Shown: positions 52,914 through 59,073 of the stretch, one piece after another | Layout: every line of letters begins with the position of its first letter | How positions within the stretch are numbered: position 1 is the stretch's first letter | From: Streptomyces sp. NBC_00659 | Lineage (GTDB): Bacteria > Actinomycetota > Actinomycetes > Streptomycetales > Streptomycetaceae | DNA: 64,000 bases | NCBI RefSeq assembly: GCF_036226925.1 | Contig: NZ_CP109031.1 | Span: forward strand, 310,001-374,000 | Reading direction: 5' to 3' | Position numbers and translations under genes: made by a program | Notes under the pieces: generated by a model | The model's input: only the letters and a program-made list of their open reading frames with translations | Told to the model about the DNA's origin: nothing | Databases searched by the model: none

Positions 52914-53798
52914 ATGAGCAACGGCAACACCGTTGTGCGCAGGAGCACTTGGCGTTGGCGGTTAGCCGCTTCGGTCGCCACGGCGGCTGTGGTGCTCAGC
53001 GGCTGCGGTTCCGGGGACGACGGCAAGGCGGCCGGGCCGAGCTCTTCGGCACCTTCGAGATCCGGCGCCACAGACACGTCCGGCTCTCCATCGGCCGTCA
53101 CGTCCGGCTCGCCCTCAGCGGCCGCGTCCGCGTCCTCCTCGGTTGACGCGTCGTCGCTGACGCCGTTCCAGGCGGACCCCGCCAAGGTGCCCAGGACAAA
53201 GAGCCGGGCCGAGGCGCTGGCAGCGGCTGTCGCGCTGAAACCACAGGCGTGGGGCGCCGATTTCCGGGAGCAGCGGCCGGCCGTGAGCACTCCGGGCACC
53301 GCCGCCGTGCTGGACGAGCAGTGCCGGTGGGAACGGCGGGCGCTGCCTCAGAGCGTCCTGGCTTCCCTGTCCCGCTACAGCGAGATTCCCGCCGCCGGCG
53401 GCAAGGGCGAGCTCAAGGTGAGCGCGGTGGTCACCGTGCACACCACCGTGCGCGAGGCCGACGAGCACCTGGCCACCACGCTGGAGGAGCCGTTGCGCTG
53501 CCGGCAGCAGCAGGTCCGTACCGACGAGCGGATCGCCGAACTCATCTCGACCGCCACTCCTTACGGTCAGGGCAGCAACACCTACTCCGACGACCAGGTC
53601 GTGGAAATGGGCAAATATCTCACCGGAAGCGGCGTGCAGACCTACTACTGGTACGTCACCCGGCTCGGCACAGTGACTCTCGCGGTGTCGGTGAAGGGCG
53701 CCAAGGGCTATTCGGACAACGAGTTGGGGACGTACGCGTCGCGCGCCAACGTCGCGATGCTCACCCGCGTGGAGTCCGAGCTCGGAGGAGACAGCTGA
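52914..53798 (+). CDS. lipoprotein, first gene of the kinase operon
   Basis: ATG 52914 (GAGGGGGCGGGG upstream) gives 294 residues with a lipobox VVLSGC (Cys31), a Ser/Ala/Thr-rich linker to about 85 and a soluble domain (PRTKSRAEALAAAVALKPQA; VVTVHTTVREADEHLATTLE; TYYWYVTRLGTVTLAVSVKG). There are two further Cys (CRW, CRQ) that may pair. The stop shares one base with the start of the first kinase (TGATG), so the three genes are made together. It may be an extracellular partner of the kinase sensor domains (inference). Family not recognised. Confidence 0.88.
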   Translation: MSNGNTVVRRSTWRWRLAASVATAAVVLSGCGSGDDGKAAGPSSSAPSRSGATDTSGSPSAVTSGSPSAAASASSSVDASSLTPFQADPAKVPRTKSRAEALAAAVALKPQAWGADFREQRPAVSTPGTAAVLDEQCRWERRALPQSVLASLSRYSEIPAAGGKGELKVSAVVTVHTTVREADEHLATTLEEPLRCRQQQVRTDERIAELISTATPYGQGSNTYSDDQVVEMGKYLTGSGVQTYYWYVTRLGTVTLAVSVKGAKGYSDNELGTYASRANVAMLTRVESELGGDS

Positions 53799-56107
53799 TG
53801 GAGCCGCTGCGTTCGTCGGATCCCGCGCGCATCGCGGACCATCGCCTGCTCGGGCGGCTCGGCGCCGGAGGCATGGGCGTGGTGTACCTGGCTCGCACCC
53901 CTGGGGGCGCGCTGGTGGCGCTGAAGGTGCTGCTCGCCGAGTACGCCGAGGAGCCGGGCTTCAAAGAGCGGTTCCGCCGCGAGGTCGAGGTCGCCCGGCG
54001 GGTCGACAGCCCCTGGGTGGTGCCGCTGGTGGACGCCGACCCGGACGCCGAGGCGCCGTGGCTGGCGACGGCGTTCGTGCCCGGACCGTCACTGGGCGAG
54101 GCCGTGGCCGCGTACGGGCCGCTGCCCGAGCGCGGTCTGCGGCTGCTGGGCGCCCGGCTGGCCGAGGCGCTGGGCGAGGTGCACCGGGCCGGGCTGGTCC
54201 ACCGGGATCTGAAGCCGGGCAATGTGCTGACCGCCCACGACGGGCCGCGGCTCATCGACTTCGGCATCGCCCGCGCGCCGGAGGACCGGACGCTCACGGC
54301 GACCGGGATGGTGGTCGGCACACCCGGTTATCTGTCTCCCGAGCAGGCCGAGGGGCGGGGCGGGGACGGCATCGGCCCGGCGAGCGACGTGTTCTCCCTC
54401 GGCTGTGTCCTGGCGTTCGCGGCGACCGGGCGGGCGCCGTTCGGCAGCGGAGCGGTCGACGCCCTGCTGTACCGGGCCGTCCACGACCCGGCGGACCTCG
54501 AGGGGGTGCCGGCGTGGCTGCTCGAGGTGCTGGCCCGCTGCCTGGAGAAGGATCCTGCCCGGCGGCCGGATGCCGGTGAGCTGGTGCGGGAGCTGGCGGC
54601 CGACGGCGCCGCCCAGGGCGAAGCGACCTCCGAGGCCGCACCGCGGGACGAGGGGACATCCGAGGCCGCACCGCGGGACGAGGGGACGTCCGAAGCCGCA
54701 CCGCGGGACCAAGGCGCGTCCGGGTGGCTGCCCGAGCCGGTCGCCCGGCTGATCGCCGAGCGCTCGGCCGCCGCGCTCGCGCTGCCGGACATCGAGCACA
54801 CGCTGGCGCCGTCCGACACACCGGCCGCTGCCGACCCGGCGGAGCCCGACACGCATGAGATGGCCGGGCCGGCGGAGCCGCGGGACTCCCTCCCGGCCGG
54901 CCGGCGTCGTTTCCTGCTGCTCGCCGGCGGGGCCGTGGCGCTGGCGGCGGGCGGGGGCGGGGCCTGGTGGGCGGTGGCCCGCGACGGCGGCCCGGGAGGC
55001 GAGAGCCCTGCCGACGCCGCGTCCTCGCGCCGGCCGGTGCACACCATCGCCCTGCACGGCGACCTCAGCGGCCCGCAGCGGGAGACGGGCCGGGCCCAGG
55101 AACGCGGACTGCGGCTCGCGGTCGCGGAGTTCAACGCGCGCGGCGACGCGCCGTTCGCCGTGAAGGTCAAAGCCGTCGACGACGGGGGCGATCCGGCGGC
55201 CTCTGCCCGGCTCGCCGCGCAGCTCACCGACGATCCGGCGGTCCTCGCCGTCGTCGGCCCGACCACCGACGAGACCGGGCAGACGGCGCTCGCGACGTAC
55301 GACGCCGGACTGCTGCCGGTCGTCGGCGTGTCCCCCGGCACGACCGCCCTGTCCATCCAGGGGTTCCGCTCGTTCCTGAACGCACGGCTGCCCGACGCCG
55401 TTCTGCCCATCTACGTGAGCGCCTACCTGCGTGGCACCGCGCGATCGCGCAAGGTCGGCATCGTCGTCGACCGGCCGGCCGGCACTTACGGGACGAATCT
55501 CGGCAGTTCCCTCGCCAACGCGCTCGGCAGCATCCCGTACCCGTCCGTGCCGGAAGTGGTCAGCGCGATGCGCCGCGACTTCGGCGGCGCGGTGGACGCG
55601 GTGCTGTCCGCGGGCGCCGACTCCGTGTTCTTCGCCGGTCTGCCCGACCGGGCGGCGCTGATATCCGCGACGCTGCGGGAACGCTCCTTCACGGGTGCGC
55701 GGGTCTCCGGCCCGGCGCTGCTGGACGAGAGATTCCTGACGCAGGCTCAGGAAGGTGCCGAGGGCTGGGTGATGGTGGCCCCGGTCATCGACGCGACCCG
55801 CAAACCCGAGGCGCGGAAGTTCGCCGCCGCCTACCGCGAGCGCTTCAAGGAGGCACCGCCCCGGTACGCGGCGGAGGCCTACGACGTGACCGGGATGCTG
55901 CTCAAGGCCCTGGCCGGGCTGCCGTCGAAGGGCCGCACCCGGCAGAACCTGCTCACGGCCGTGCGGGCCGGAAAGTACAAGGGCATCACCAAGACGTTCG
56001 CCTTCGACAAGATCGGCATGATGGTCATGGACGGCACCGGCGGCTTCCTCTGGCGGGTGGACCGGGGTGCGTTCGTGTACGACGGCCCCGCGCCGCTCAC
56101 CGCCTGA
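53798..56107 (+). CDS. Ser/Thr protein kinase with periplasmic-binding-type sensor domain
   Basis: 769 residues. The kinase domain (about 10-270) is complete: GAGGMGVVYLA loop, Lys43 in ALKVLL, HRDLKPGN (Asp137), DFGIARA (Asp154), SPEQ (180-183). A tandem repeat of ~11 residues (EGTSEAAPRDE, three copies at 277-307) is followed by a linker, a Tat-like GRRRFLLLAGGAVALAAG membrane segment (369-390) and a Peripla_BP_6/LivJ-like ligand domain to the end (LHGDLSGPQRETGRAQERGL; VVGPTTDETGQTALATYDAG). Together this is a transmembrane receptor kinase likely to sense a small molecule outside. It couples to the lipoprotein before and a paralogue after. Confidence 0.94.
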   Translation: MEPLRSSDPARIADHRLLGRLGAGGMGVVYLARTPGGALVALKVLLAEYAEEPGFKERFRREVEVARRVDSPWVVPLVDADPDAEAPWLATAFVPGPSLGEAVAAYGPLPERGLRLLGARLAEALGEVHRAGLVHRDLKPGNVLTAHDGPRLIDFGIARAPEDRTLTATGMVVGTPGYLSPEQAEGRGGDGIGPASDVFSLGCVLAFAATGRAPFGSGAVDALLYRAVHDPADLEGVPAWLLEVLARCLEKDPARRPDAGELVRELAADGAAQGEATSEAAPRDEGTSEAAPRDEGTSEAAPRDQGASGWLPEPVARLIAERSAAALALPDIEHTLAPSDTPAAADPAEPDTHEMAGPAEPRDSLPAGRRRFLLLAGGAVALAAGGGGAWWAVARDGGPGGESPADAASSRRPVHTIALHGDLSGPQRETGRAQERGLRLAVAEFNARGDAPFAVKVKAVDDGGDPAASARLAAQLTDDPAVLAVVGPTTDETGQTALATYDAGLLPVVGVSPGTTALSIQGFRSFLNARLPDAVLPIYVSAYLRGTARSRKVGIVVDRPAGTYGTNLGSSLANALGSIPYPSVPEVVSAMRRDFGGAVDAVLSAGADSVFFAGLPDRAALISATLRERSFTGARVSGPALLDERFLTQAQEGAEGWVMVAPVIDATRKPEARKFAAAYRERFKEAPPRYAAEAYDVTGMLLKALAGLPSKGRTRQNLLTAVRAGKYKGITKTFAFDKIGMMVMDGTGGFLWRVDRGAFVYDGPAPLTA

Positions 56108-58344
56108 TGGAGCCGCTGCGGGCCGGCGACCCGTCCCGGATCGGCCGCTATCGTCTGCTGCGGCGGCTGGGTGCCGGCGGCATGGGCGTGGTCTTCCTGG
56201 CCCGTGCGCCGGGCGGGGCGATCGCCGCGGTGAAGACGGTCCGGTCCTCCTACGCCGACGAGAGCGGATTCCGGACCCGTTTCCGCCGTGAGGTCGAGGC
56301 CGCCCGGCAGGTCAGCAGCCGCTGGGTGGTCCCGCTGCTGGACGCGGACGCCGACGCGGAGGCACCGTGGCTGGCGACCTCGTACGTGCCGGGGCCCTCG
56401 CTCGCCGAGGCGGTGGATGCCTTCGGGCCGCTCTCGCTCGCTTCCGTTCGGGTGCTGGGCGTACGGCTCGCCGAGGCGCTCGATGCGGTGCACGGGACCG
56501 GTCTCGTACACCGTGACGTGAAGCCGGGGAACATCCTGCTGGCTCCGGACGGGCCACGGCTCATCGACTTCGGCATCGCCCGCGCGCCGGACGCCACCGC
56601 CCTCACCTCCAGCGGCGTGATCGTCGGCTCGCCGGGCTTCCTGGCGCCCGAGCAGGCGCGGGCGCGGGGCGGCGAGATCGGCCCGCCGACCGACGTGTTC
56701 TCACTCGGGTGCGTGCTGGCGTTCGCCGCGACCGGGATACGGCCGTTCGGCGGCGGCGCGGCGGCCGGGGTGCTGTTGCGCACGATCTACGAAGAGCCCG
56801 ATCCGGCGGCGCTCCCGGACGGTCCGGCACCCCTGCTGAGAGCCTGCCTGCACAAGGATCCGGCCGCCCGCCCGAGCCTCGCGCGACTCCGGGCGACGCT
56901 CGAGGAGGAGATGGCCGGCGACTCCGCCGAACCGTCCGACTGGCTGCCCGCGTCGGTCACCCGGCTGATCAACGACAGGTCCGCCGCCGTGCTCACCATC
57001 GGCGCGATCGAGCCGACCCAGGTGTCCGCGCCCACACCGTCGAGCACGGCCGGCACGGCGAGTGCGGCGTCGCCGGAGGCCGCGACGCTGACGGCCGTCA
57101 CCGCCACCCGCCCCACCCTGCGCGCGGTCGGCCGCCGCGGCTTCCTGCGCCTCGGCTCGACAGCGGGACTCCTCGCGGCGGGCGGTGGCGGGGCCTGGTG
57201 GTGGAGCACCCGGGCGAAGCCAGGAACGTCCACGTCGTCCGGGACCGGCCCTCGGCGCCCCGAACTGGTCGTGGCGTTCCACGGCGATCTGACCGGCGCC
57301 CACAAGGAGACCGGGAAGGCCCAGCTCAACGGCGTCCGGCTGGCCGTCGAACAGCTCAACGCCCAGAAGAACCGTACTTTCCGGCTGAAGCTGCGGTCGT
57401 ACGACGACGGTGGCGACACCAGGCGGGCCGACGAGCTGGCCGCCCGGCTGGCGAAGGATGCGGAGGTGCTCGGGGTACTGGGCCCGACCACGGACGCCTG
57501 CTTCCGCGCCACCGAGAAGACGTACACCCAAGCGGTGATGCCCGTCGTGTCCGTGTCGGTGGGCACCGACACACTGAGTTCGGCATTCGGCACGAACATC
57601 TTCCACTGCCATGCTGCACTGCACGTCACGTACGAGCTTCTCGCCGCCCCCTGCGTTCGCTATCTCAGCAACCACCTCGACGCCCGTCATGTGTTCCTCG
57701 TGGACGACCGGGCTCAGGGCGACTTCGCCTGGACCGTGTGCGACCAGGCCGAGAAGGCGCTGCGGCACAACGGCCGCGACACCACGGTGACCCATGTGGG
57801 CGCCGGGAGGATCGACTACGCGTCGCTCGCCGCCATGGTGAAGTCCGCCCACGCGGACGCGGTCGTCTTCACCGGCGACGCGGCCCGGGCCGCCGGATTC
57901 GCGTCCGCGCTCACGGCCGCCCGGTTCACCGGCGCCCGGTTGGCGACGGAACGCGCGCTCGACCCACGGTTCCTCGCCTCGGCCGGCGCCGCCGCGAAGG
58001 GCTGGGTCTTCGCCACCTCCTTCACCGACCCGACGGCCCGCGCCTCCGCCCGCGCGTTCACGGCGGCCTACCGCGCCCGCTTCGGCGCCGACCCCGGCTG
58101 GTACGCGGCGGAGGCACACGACGCCGTGATGTTCCTGGCCCAAGCCTGCGACAAGGACGGCACCACGCTGACGGAACGGGGCGCGATCGCCCGCCGGATG
58201 CCCGAGATCACGTATGCCGGCATCACCCGCACGGTCAAGTACGAGTCGGGGTACGGCTACAACCACGACGGGATGTTCGAGTTCCAGGTCGTCGACGGCG
58301 CGTTCCGGTACCTGGGGCACTACCGGGACGCCGCGGTGTCGTGA
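56107..58344 (+). CDS. Ser/Thr protein kinase with periplasmic-binding-type sensor domain (paralogue)
   Basis: 745 residues, a clear paralogue of the gene before it: same start (MEPLR...DP-R-I), Lys43, HRDVKPGN (Asp137), DFGIARA (Asp154), APEQ. The juxtamembrane linker is Thr/Ser/Pro-rich, the RR-bearing membrane segment is VGRRGFLRLGSTAGLLAAGG (341-360), and the LivJ-like domain runs from about 383 (FHGDLTGAHKETGKAQLNGV; LGPTTDACFRATEKTYTQAV). The sensor halves have diverged more than the kinase halves, so the two probably read different ligands. TGATG coupling joins it to the first kinase. Confidence 0.94.
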   Translation: MEPLRAGDPSRIGRYRLLRRLGAGGMGVVFLARAPGGAIAAVKTVRSSYADESGFRTRFRREVEAARQVSSRWVVPLLDADADAEAPWLATSYVPGPSLAEAVDAFGPLSLASVRVLGVRLAEALDAVHGTGLVHRDVKPGNILLAPDGPRLIDFGIARAPDATALTSSGVIVGSPGFLAPEQARARGGEIGPPTDVFSLGCVLAFAATGIRPFGGGAAAGVLLRTIYEEPDPAALPDGPAPLLRACLHKDPAARPSLARLRATLEEEMAGDSAEPSDWLPASVTRLINDRSAAVLTIGAIEPTQVSAPTPSSTAGTASAASPEAATLTAVTATRPTLRAVGRRGFLRLGSTAGLLAAGGGGAWWWSTRAKPGTSTSSGTGPRRPELVVAFHGDLTGAHKETGKAQLNGVRLAVEQLNAQKNRTFRLKLRSYDDGGDTRRADELAARLAKDAEVLGVLGPTTDACFRATEKTYTQAVMPVVSVSVGTDTLSSAFGTNIFHCHAALHVTYELLAAPCVRYLSNHLDARHVFLVDDRAQGDFAWTVCDQAEKALRHNGRDTTVTHVGAGRIDYASLAAMVKSAHADAVVFTGDAARAAGFASALTAARFTGARLATERALDPRFLASAGAAAKGWVFATSFTDPTARASARAFTAAYRARFGADPGWYAAEAHDAVMFLAQACDKDGTTLTERGAIARRMPEITYAGITRTVKYESGYGYNHDGMFEFQVVDGAFRYLGHYRDAAVS

Positions 58345-58403
58345 TGGCCCTGGACATACGTCTTGCGGAGGACCAAGATCCATCGCGGATCGGCGCCCAT
58401 TAG
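58344..58403 (+). pseudogene. apparent start of a third kinase gene
   Basis: The second kinase stop again overlaps an ATG (TGATG). The 19 codons that follow read ALDIRLAEDQDPSRIGAH before TAG. DPSRIGAH matches DPSRIGRY and DPARIADH at the same place in the two kinases upstream. It may be what is left of a third paralogue, or a short fortuitous peptide. Confidence 0.45.
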
Positions 58404-58413
58404 GGTCGGGGGC

Positions 58414-59073
58414 ATGACGTCACCCCTTGCCGGCAGTGCCTTCGACTCGCTCCTTCTCGACGCCGTGCCCGACCAGGAGGCACTGCGCCGGGCTTACGAA
58501 CTCCCCAGCGACGCCGCCGTGCGCAAGCAGATGACCGAACTCACCGAACAGACCAAGCGGTTGATCGGATGCTCATCGCTGGTCCTGGTCGCCAGCACGG
58601 ACGCCGAGGGCAACTGTGACGTTTCCCCGCGCGGCGGCCCTGCCGGGTTCGTCGCCGTCCTGGACACACGGACGGTGGCGATACCGGACGCGACCGGCAA
58701 CAAGCGTCTGGACACCCTGCAGAATGTCGTCACCACGGGACGGGCCGGCCTGCTGTTCATCATCCCGGGGCGCACCACGACGCTCAGAGTGAACGGCCGG
58801 GCCTGCGTCTCCACCCGCCCGGAGCTGCTGTCTCAGCTGACCGCCGTGGGCAAACCGCCGGCCAGTGCGCTGGTGCTGGGGATCGAGGAGGTCTACCCGC
58901 ACTGCCCCAAGGCACTCCTGCGCAGCGGGGCCTGGAAGCCGGACCAGTGGCTGTCGGCGGACGCCCAGCCGACCTCGGCCGAGGTGACGCTGGCCCAGCT
59001 GCGGATGCCGGAGCTGACGATCGCCGACATCGAGCAGACGGAGGCGGATTCACTGAAGTACCGCTACGAGTAG
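58414..59073 (+). CDS. pyridoxamine 5'-phosphate oxidase family (MSMEG_1061-like) flavoprotein
   Basis: 219 residues with a split-barrel PPOX fold: MTELTEQTKRLIGCSSLVLV, VSPRGGPAGFVAVLDTRTVA, TGRAGLLFIIPGRTTTLRVN and SALVLGIEEVYPHCPKALLR. This is the FMN-binding PPOX group annotated as MSMEG_1061 family. No catalytic pyridoxamine residues can be assigned, so the substrate is unknown. Confidence 0.9.
   Translation: MTSPLAGSAFDSLLLDAVPDQEALRRAYELPSDAAVRKQMTELTEQTKRLIGCSSLVLVASTDAEGNCDVSPRGGPAGFVAVLDTRTVAIPDATGNKRLDTLQNVVTTGRAGLLFIIPGRTTTLRVNGRACVSTRPELLSQLTAVGKPPASALVLGIEEVYPHCPKALLRSGAWKPDQWLSADAQPTSAEVTLAQLRMPELTIADIEQTEADSLKYRYE

Follow-up and report, generated by a model that had tools for sequence, protein, structure and literature searches.

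A 64,000-nucleotide stretch of Streptomyces sp. NBC_00659 (NZ_CP109031.1, positions 310,001 to 374,000; hereafter the window), which sits in a 9.66 Mb single-contig genome, carries on its forward strand a lipoprotein gene (52914..53798, 294 amino acids) followed by the genes of two serine/threonine kinases, kinase 1 (53798..56107, 769 amino acids) and kinase 2 (56107..58344, 745 amino acids). We propose, with a probability of roughly 0.6, that these genes form an extracytoplasmic sensing module of Streptomycetaceae, in which paired kinases put out their sensors through an internal signal-anchor of the twin-arginine translocation (Tat) system and the lipoprotein serves as co-receptor. The sensors are probably translocated by Tat, already folded, through an anchor that stays uncleaved.

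Both kinases consist of an AfsK-type kinase domain, a variable linker, a segment bearing two arginines (RR) and a LivJ-type sensor. This receptor-like layout had been proposed in an initial annotation of the window and is supported here; its gene positions were exact on re-reading, as were the TGATG sequences at both junctions (lipoprotein/kinase 1 and kinase 1/kinase 2), each of which is a one-base overlap. That annotation was silent on the Tat match of the RR segment, on the loss of LivJ ligand residues, and on the likeness of the lipoprotein to the PknH sensor.

Internal twin-arginine segment

The segment reads RRRFLLLAGGAVALAAGGGGAWWAVARD in kinase 1 (54902..54985, forward strand, residues 369-396) and RRGFLRLGSTAGLLAAGGGGAWWWSTRAK in kinase 2 (57133..57219, forward strand, residues 343-371), and the central RR noted in the initial annotation is present in both. 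We aligned 141 relatives, namely 113 database proteins longer than 600 amino acids among the best 120 of 281 proteins matching the kinase-2 sensor half, and 28 fusions from the genomic loci described below; 144 sequences had been collected, and two copies of the window's kinase 2 and one protein of another subfamily were left out. The resulting pattern is G/S/T/R-R-R-x-F/L-L-x-L-G, followed by an uncharged Gly/Ala-rich stretch, a Trp and a basic residue. RR is found in all 141 relatives (displaced by one alignment column in one row) and RRx[FLVI]L in 139, the remaining two reading RRGFM and RRLLV; the residues ahead of RR are variable. Each of the 75 locus-derived fusions (71 different) keeps RR followed by hydrophobic residues, and the two arginines are written by six and five different Arg codons, respectively.

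The stretch behind the arginines is only weakly hydrophobic, with a median 19-residue Kyte-Doolittle maximum (KD19) of 1.00 (0.72-2.06, n = 141; 0.86 in kinase 2), and a Lys or Arg follows it within 14 residues in 136 of the 141 proteins. As controls we used other kinases of the same genome: 22 were read from 20 stretches (the Pkinase search, PF00069, listed 40 matches), one was dropped because it was cut short and four because they had no segment with a KD19 of at least 1.6 (maxima 0.45-1.14). The 17 that were left, PASTA and PQQ kinases among them, have a median KD19 of 2.45 (2.12-3.27), and the highest fused anchor (2.06) lies below the lowest control (2.12). A simple position-independent insertion score has a median of +5.66 for the anchors versus -0.55 for the controls. 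Thus, by sequence, the segment combines the RR consensus of an internal Tat signal-anchor with the low hydrophobicity and C-terminal positive charges expected of one, and from this we infer membrane insertion and Tat dependence.

Membrane proteins with internal Tat signals, including the actinobacterial Rieske protein Sco2149, were reportedly described by Keller in 2012. Sco2149 is a proven internal Tat substrate. Low hydrophobicity and following positive charges make Sec release such a segment to Tat (Tooke et al. 2017, PMC5449189). Sco2149 and other internal-Tat proteins share with the fusion kinases an internal RR before a weakly hydrophobic segment, basic residues after it and a C-terminal domain outside; they differ in being polytopic and, in the examples described, in binding metals or metal cofactors, whereas the present signal follows a soluble kinase and has, to our knowledge, neither a transmembrane domain (TMD) ahead of it nor a cofactor. 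The genome of the window encodes TatC and its own Rieske protein with three TMDs, which reads GRRKLI and whose third TMD has a KD19 of 1.52 versus 2.36 and 2.02 for the first two.

Free relatives of the sensors (n = 37) have a lipobox-like site in 35 cases, RR within the 75 residues before the domain in 25 and RRx[FLVI]L in four. In the 141 fused proteins the 45 residues that follow RR are free of Cys, and these proteins therefore have no lipobox; the RR anchor stands in its place.

The most serious alternative, although we consider it unlikely, is that the segment is an ordinary signal-anchor inserted by Sec/YidC, whose arginines do no more than fix the N-in orientation, the role they have in PASTA kinases. 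RR also precedes the membrane segment in 7 of the 17 controls, two of which fit a looser motif, and this reading gains further from the lipobox-like signals and RR pairs of the free relatives and from another subfamily of fusions, identified through the third fusion that this genome encodes, in which RR is present in 115 and replaced by WR in four of 119 proteins (from the best 120 listed of 302 found; KD19 1.41-2.06). It does not account well for anchors less hydrophobic than every control, for the difference in insertion score, or for an RRx[FLVI]L motif of fixed spacing that is nearly invariant in the fusions and matched by 0 of 17 controls, with basic residues behind it. The third fusion itself lies at about 9153.7-9156.3 kb of the genome (contig C1, loci L039/L091), and a lipoprotein of the module type was not found in the 14 kb around it.

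Several observations weigh against Tat delivery. RR alone is common, as the controls and free relatives show, and Arg is favoured at the G+C content of this genome; even the fuller motif occurs in 4 of 37 free relatives, and four of 119 members of the other subfamily carry WR instead. Because the free relatives carry lipobox-like sites, the LivJ fold can evidently be exported by another type of signal. The fused proteins have no cofactor that would demand Tat. In the AlphaFold2 (AF2) model of kinase 2, residues 300-381 have no confident structure and the anchor forms no helix (predicted local distance difference test, pLDDT, below 50). Finally, the sequences compared are related by descent, for which the P values are uncorrected.

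Conservation of the module

Fusion kinases were found (E 1e-40) in 22 of 61 Streptomyces genomes. The lipoprotein gene lies upstream on the same strand in 23 of the 24 loci around them, and three more loci, reached via the lipoprotein, contain both kinases with more divergent sensors, giving 26 of 27 overall. Co-occurrence of the lipoprotein had been named in the initial annotation as a check on its proposal; these loci support the co-occurrence and do not refute the proposal. Two fusion genes are in open frame at 24 of the 27 loci; two loci have a single one (L080 and L088) and in one (L081) the second gene is interrupted. When the same 61 genomes were searched with the lipoprotein family, 26 matches above 200 bits were obtained in 22 genomes, all of them beside fusion kinases, together with five matches of at most 45 bits. 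By these thresholds 21 genomes have both components, one the kinase alone, one the lipoprotein alone and 38 neither (Fisher 4e-14, uncorrected for descent); in the genome assigned the lipoprotein alone (G011), the kinases are present below threshold. Eight named genomes reached via the lipoprotein all have two kinase genes behind it, and in one of them (L099) the reading frames of the lipoprotein and of the first kinase are broken. Two of the Streptomyces loci have sensor and kinase halves identical to those of records named Streptomyces fructofermentans and S. aureus.

No conserved genes were found beyond the trio, as true flanking clusters cover at most 5 of 37 loci; the larger clusters of open reading frames (ORFs), which cover 37, 36, 16 and 7 of the 37, are the module itself and overlapping frames. 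Inside the same family (f1) but beyond the genus, fusions occur in three genomes (G128, G087 and G061), and G128, of another genus, has the full module. No frame of at least 700 amino acids was found outside that family in 118 genomes of the class, where the listed matches reach at most 583 amino acids; this search used a threshold of E 1e-25 and scored no more than 15 candidates in each genome, so that it may have overlooked divergent fusions.

A few loci depart from the usual form. At L068 (G013) the module lacks the lipoprotein, the kinase half of its first kinase has a low score of 292 bits, and the gene upstream is, by eye, MazG-like. Loci L146, L150, L151 and L152 hold a divergent module of lipoprotein and two kinases whose sensors score 209-240 bits against the family model, and G011 holds two divergent modules.

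Sensor domains and ligand pocket

The sensors, at 55037..56089 in kinase 1 and 57262..58332 in kinase 2 (both forward strand), match Peripla_BP_6 above the Pfam cut-offs (4e-30 and 4e-36). The initial annotation had assigned them a LivJ-type, Venus-flytrap fold, and this assignment holds by sequence for both; structure prediction, which had been suggested as a check and was run on kinase 2 only, agrees with a periplasmic-binding fold there. The closest solved structures are leucine- and branched-chain-amino-acid-binding proteins.

The pocket has changed. We examined the positions of Ser79, Thr102 and Glu226, the ligand residues of LivJ. At these three positions, the alignment being less certain around Thr102, kinase 1 has Asp or Asn in 30 of 35 sequences, Thr in 0 of 35 and Arg in 21 of 35, and kinase 2 has Asp or Asn in 26, Thr in one and Arg in 34 of 35, versus Ser in 36, Thr in 36 and Asp or Glu in 29 of 37 free sensor relatives. 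The window itself has Asp491 and Arg618 (kinase 1) and Asp463 and Arg594 (kinase 2) at the positions of Ser79 and Glu226. The fused sensors thus mostly lack the residue set of a LivJ amino-acid binder, and their ligand would be something other than an alpha-amino acid bound in the LivJ fashion. The suggestion that amino acids are the ligand, which was made at the outset, is weakened because most of the canonical residues are lost. It is accordingly rather unlikely that these are ordinary LivJ-type amino-acid receptors, which would inform the kinases of branched-chain or polar amino acids: the Peripla_BP_6 matches and the nature of the closest solved structures speak for such a role, and the replacement of the three residues in most fused sensors, when most free relatives keep them, speaks against it. 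The sensors of the single-kinase loci L080 and L088 form a separate branch, and their two pocket positions are occupied by Ala and Asp.

Lipoprotein

The first gene encodes a bacterial lipoprotein with an LSGC lipobox (52995..53006, forward strand) and a predicted lipidated Cys31 that is invariant in alignments of 23 and 30 sequences. A Ser/Pro-rich tether leads to a single globular domain at about residues 86-292, the computed fold of which is like that of the PknH sensor. Sequence searches recorded no such relationship: no Pfam match was better than E 0.1 in 23 members and no family was listed for the window's protein; PF14032 was not among the six families listed up to E 1 for these 23, HMMER filters discarding most matches above about 0.1; and no match in the Protein Data Bank (PDB) was better than E 0.4. 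Mycobacterial lipoproteins with a PknH-type sensor domain are known, and Mycobacterium tuberculosis PknH (4esq) has its sensor fused to the kinase and two disulfides (PMC4118811). The module lipoprotein differs in being a separate protein that does not match PF14032 up to E 1 and has, besides the lipobox Cys, only Cys137 and Cys196; at most one disulfide could form between these conserved residues, and the two intramolecular disulfides of the PknH type are absent.

The role of solute-binding ligand trap, once suggested for this protein, finds no support in its PknH-sensor-like fold. We also regard as doubtful that the protein works independently, as a ligand trap or a cell-wall lipoprotein that merely shares the promoter: all 26 strong lipoprotein matches in the 61 genomes adjoin fusion kinases, when true flanking clusters are confined to at most 5 of 37 loci.

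Kinase domains and duplication

Both kinase halves match Pkinase above the Pfam cut-offs (5e-37 for kinase 1 and 5e-36 for kinase 2) and have the Gly loop, Lys, HRD and DFG of Hanks-type bacterial Ser/Thr kinases. The intact catalytic motifs reported earlier are borne out: both proteins carry Lys43, Asp137 and Asp154, there is no variation in the HRD Asp, its Asn or the tested DFG positions among 35 kinase-1 and 35 kinase-2 sequences, and the catalytic Lys is missing in one of the 35 kinase-1 sequences. With the AfsK model NF053615 they score 267 and 283 bits over residues 1-345 and 1-327, respectively, below the curated cut-off of 1300 bits, and by this measure the kinase parts are AfsK-like but outside AfsK. 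A juxtamembrane motif beginning WLPEPVARLI (54725..54808 in kinase 1, forward strand) presumably lies on the cytoplasmic side; its residues W279, L280, R286, L287, I288 and R291 (kinase-2 numbering) do not vary across an alignment of 44 sequences that contains kinase 1.

As had been claimed, the kinase halves of the window's pair are closer to each other (63%) than the sensor halves (37%), and each of the 34 paired loci shows the same order (medians 63.5 and 36.5). The conclusion once drawn from it, that a change of ligand came after the duplication, is not warranted: orthologues at the same position show the same contrast with the window (medians of 68 and 64% for the kinase halves and 40.5 and 39% for the sensors), and we therefore discarded such a change as the explanation of the diverged sensors. 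The sensors simply evolve faster. FastTree separates the sensors of 35 kinases 1 from those of 35 kinases 2 in a single split (support 99 for kinase 2 and 76 for kinase 1), and the tree of the kinase halves needs two changes. From these trees and the conserved module, the pair is best read as a single old duplication retained in order.

Proposed mechanism

On the basis of anatomy and conservation, we suggest the following scheme. The kinases would lie in the cytoplasm and the flytraps outside, where they would sense a signal, possibly with the lipoprotein, whose PknH-sensor-like domain would be tethered to the outer face as a co-receptor. The signal would alter how kinase 1 and kinase 2 pair, activation would come from bringing the kinase domains together, and the paired kinases would then phosphorylate each other and further targets. 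We infer a heterodimer of kinase 1 and kinase 2 from their paired retention and from the ectodomains of class C receptors (GABA-B, mGlu), which serve here as an analogy only; the two loci with a single kinase count against it. A stronger version, in which two Venus-flytrap kinases with Tat-delivered folded sensors and uncleaved anchors form an obligate heterodimer with the PknH-sensor-like lipoprotein as third subunit, and so constitute a new receptor class, is speculative and in our estimate improbable. On that version, D463 and R594 of kinase 2, which stand where LivJ holds its amino-acid ligand, might lie opposite one another in the cleft; in that case the flytrap may be closed by the action of the partner or the lipoprotein and not by an amino acid.

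It is very unlikely that the kinases are soluble and cytoplasmic, with a segment that is just a flexible linker of Gly and Ala and a LivJ-fold domain that senses an intracellular molecule: cytoplasmic regulators with a LivJ fold exist, AmiC among them, and the very low hydrophobicity of the kinase-2 segment and its helix-free AF2 model would suit a linker, but a conserved RRxFL, an uncharged stretch ending in a conserved Trp and basic residues behind it are hard to explain in one, and the operon partner is, judged by its lipobox, an exported lipoprotein.

Should the anchor be a genuine Tat signal, the Tat system would deliver the sensing half of receptors, beyond cofactor enzymes, and kinase signalling would therefore depend on Tat; an RR consensus with a weak anchor after a kinase domain would then be a sequence rule for finding more. 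What activates bacterial Ser/Thr kinases has been described as an outstanding question (PMC6069109). The module is compact, and its sensor fold, lost amino-acid site, partner lipoprotein and delivery signal are each open to testing.

Relation to known systems

The architecture is not new, and we discarded that idea. Solute-binding folds fused to Ser/Thr kinases had been called uncommon, but fusions of this kind were listed in 2005 by Krupa and Srinivasan in S. coelicolor and Nostoc (PMC1262709), and most of the best 120 of the 281 proteins matching the kinase-2 sensor half are named 'bifunctional serine/threonine-protein kinase/ABC transporter substrate-binding protein' by NCBI. The available part of PMC1262709 reports this kind of domain pairing, with a solute-binding domain in the S. 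coelicolor kinase and an ANF-receptor domain in Nostoc; the S. coelicolor domain is described there as of the Glu/Gln type, unlike the present sensors, and nothing was found in that part on a changed pocket, on kinases in tandem with a lipoprotein beside them, or on Tat-like anchors. We found no description of Tat-delivered kinases in the open PubMed Central (PMC) literature, judged mostly on titles and abstract openings; the word 'kinase' is absent from the main text of PMC5449189, PMC7317946 and PMC13186574, and the word 'twin-arginine' from PMC6213207. We found no account of a receptor kinase whose sensor is pushed out by an export signal in mid-protein, the route that the fusion kinases appear to use.

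Among known pathways GlnH-GlnX-PknG comes closest: there too, a solute-binding lipoprotein is proposed to inform a Ser/Thr kinase of actinobacteria about extracytoplasmic nutrients (PMC6069109). It differs from the module in that it comprises three separate proteins, an unfused sensor and an amino-acid ligand.

Neighbouring sequences

A 19-codon ORF, MALDIRLAEDQDPSRIGAH (58344..58403, forward strand), starts in the kinase-2 stop at a further TGATG. It resembles a kinase N-terminus (DPSRIG) and is a candidate stump of a third kinase, maybe one that was lost; of the 35 loci compared, only the window has a DPxRIG-like peptide in the 400 bases that follow the last kinase, with no counterpart in the 34 others. 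A PPOX-type flavoprotein (TIGR04025) is encoded directly downstream of the module, at 58405-59073 of the window.

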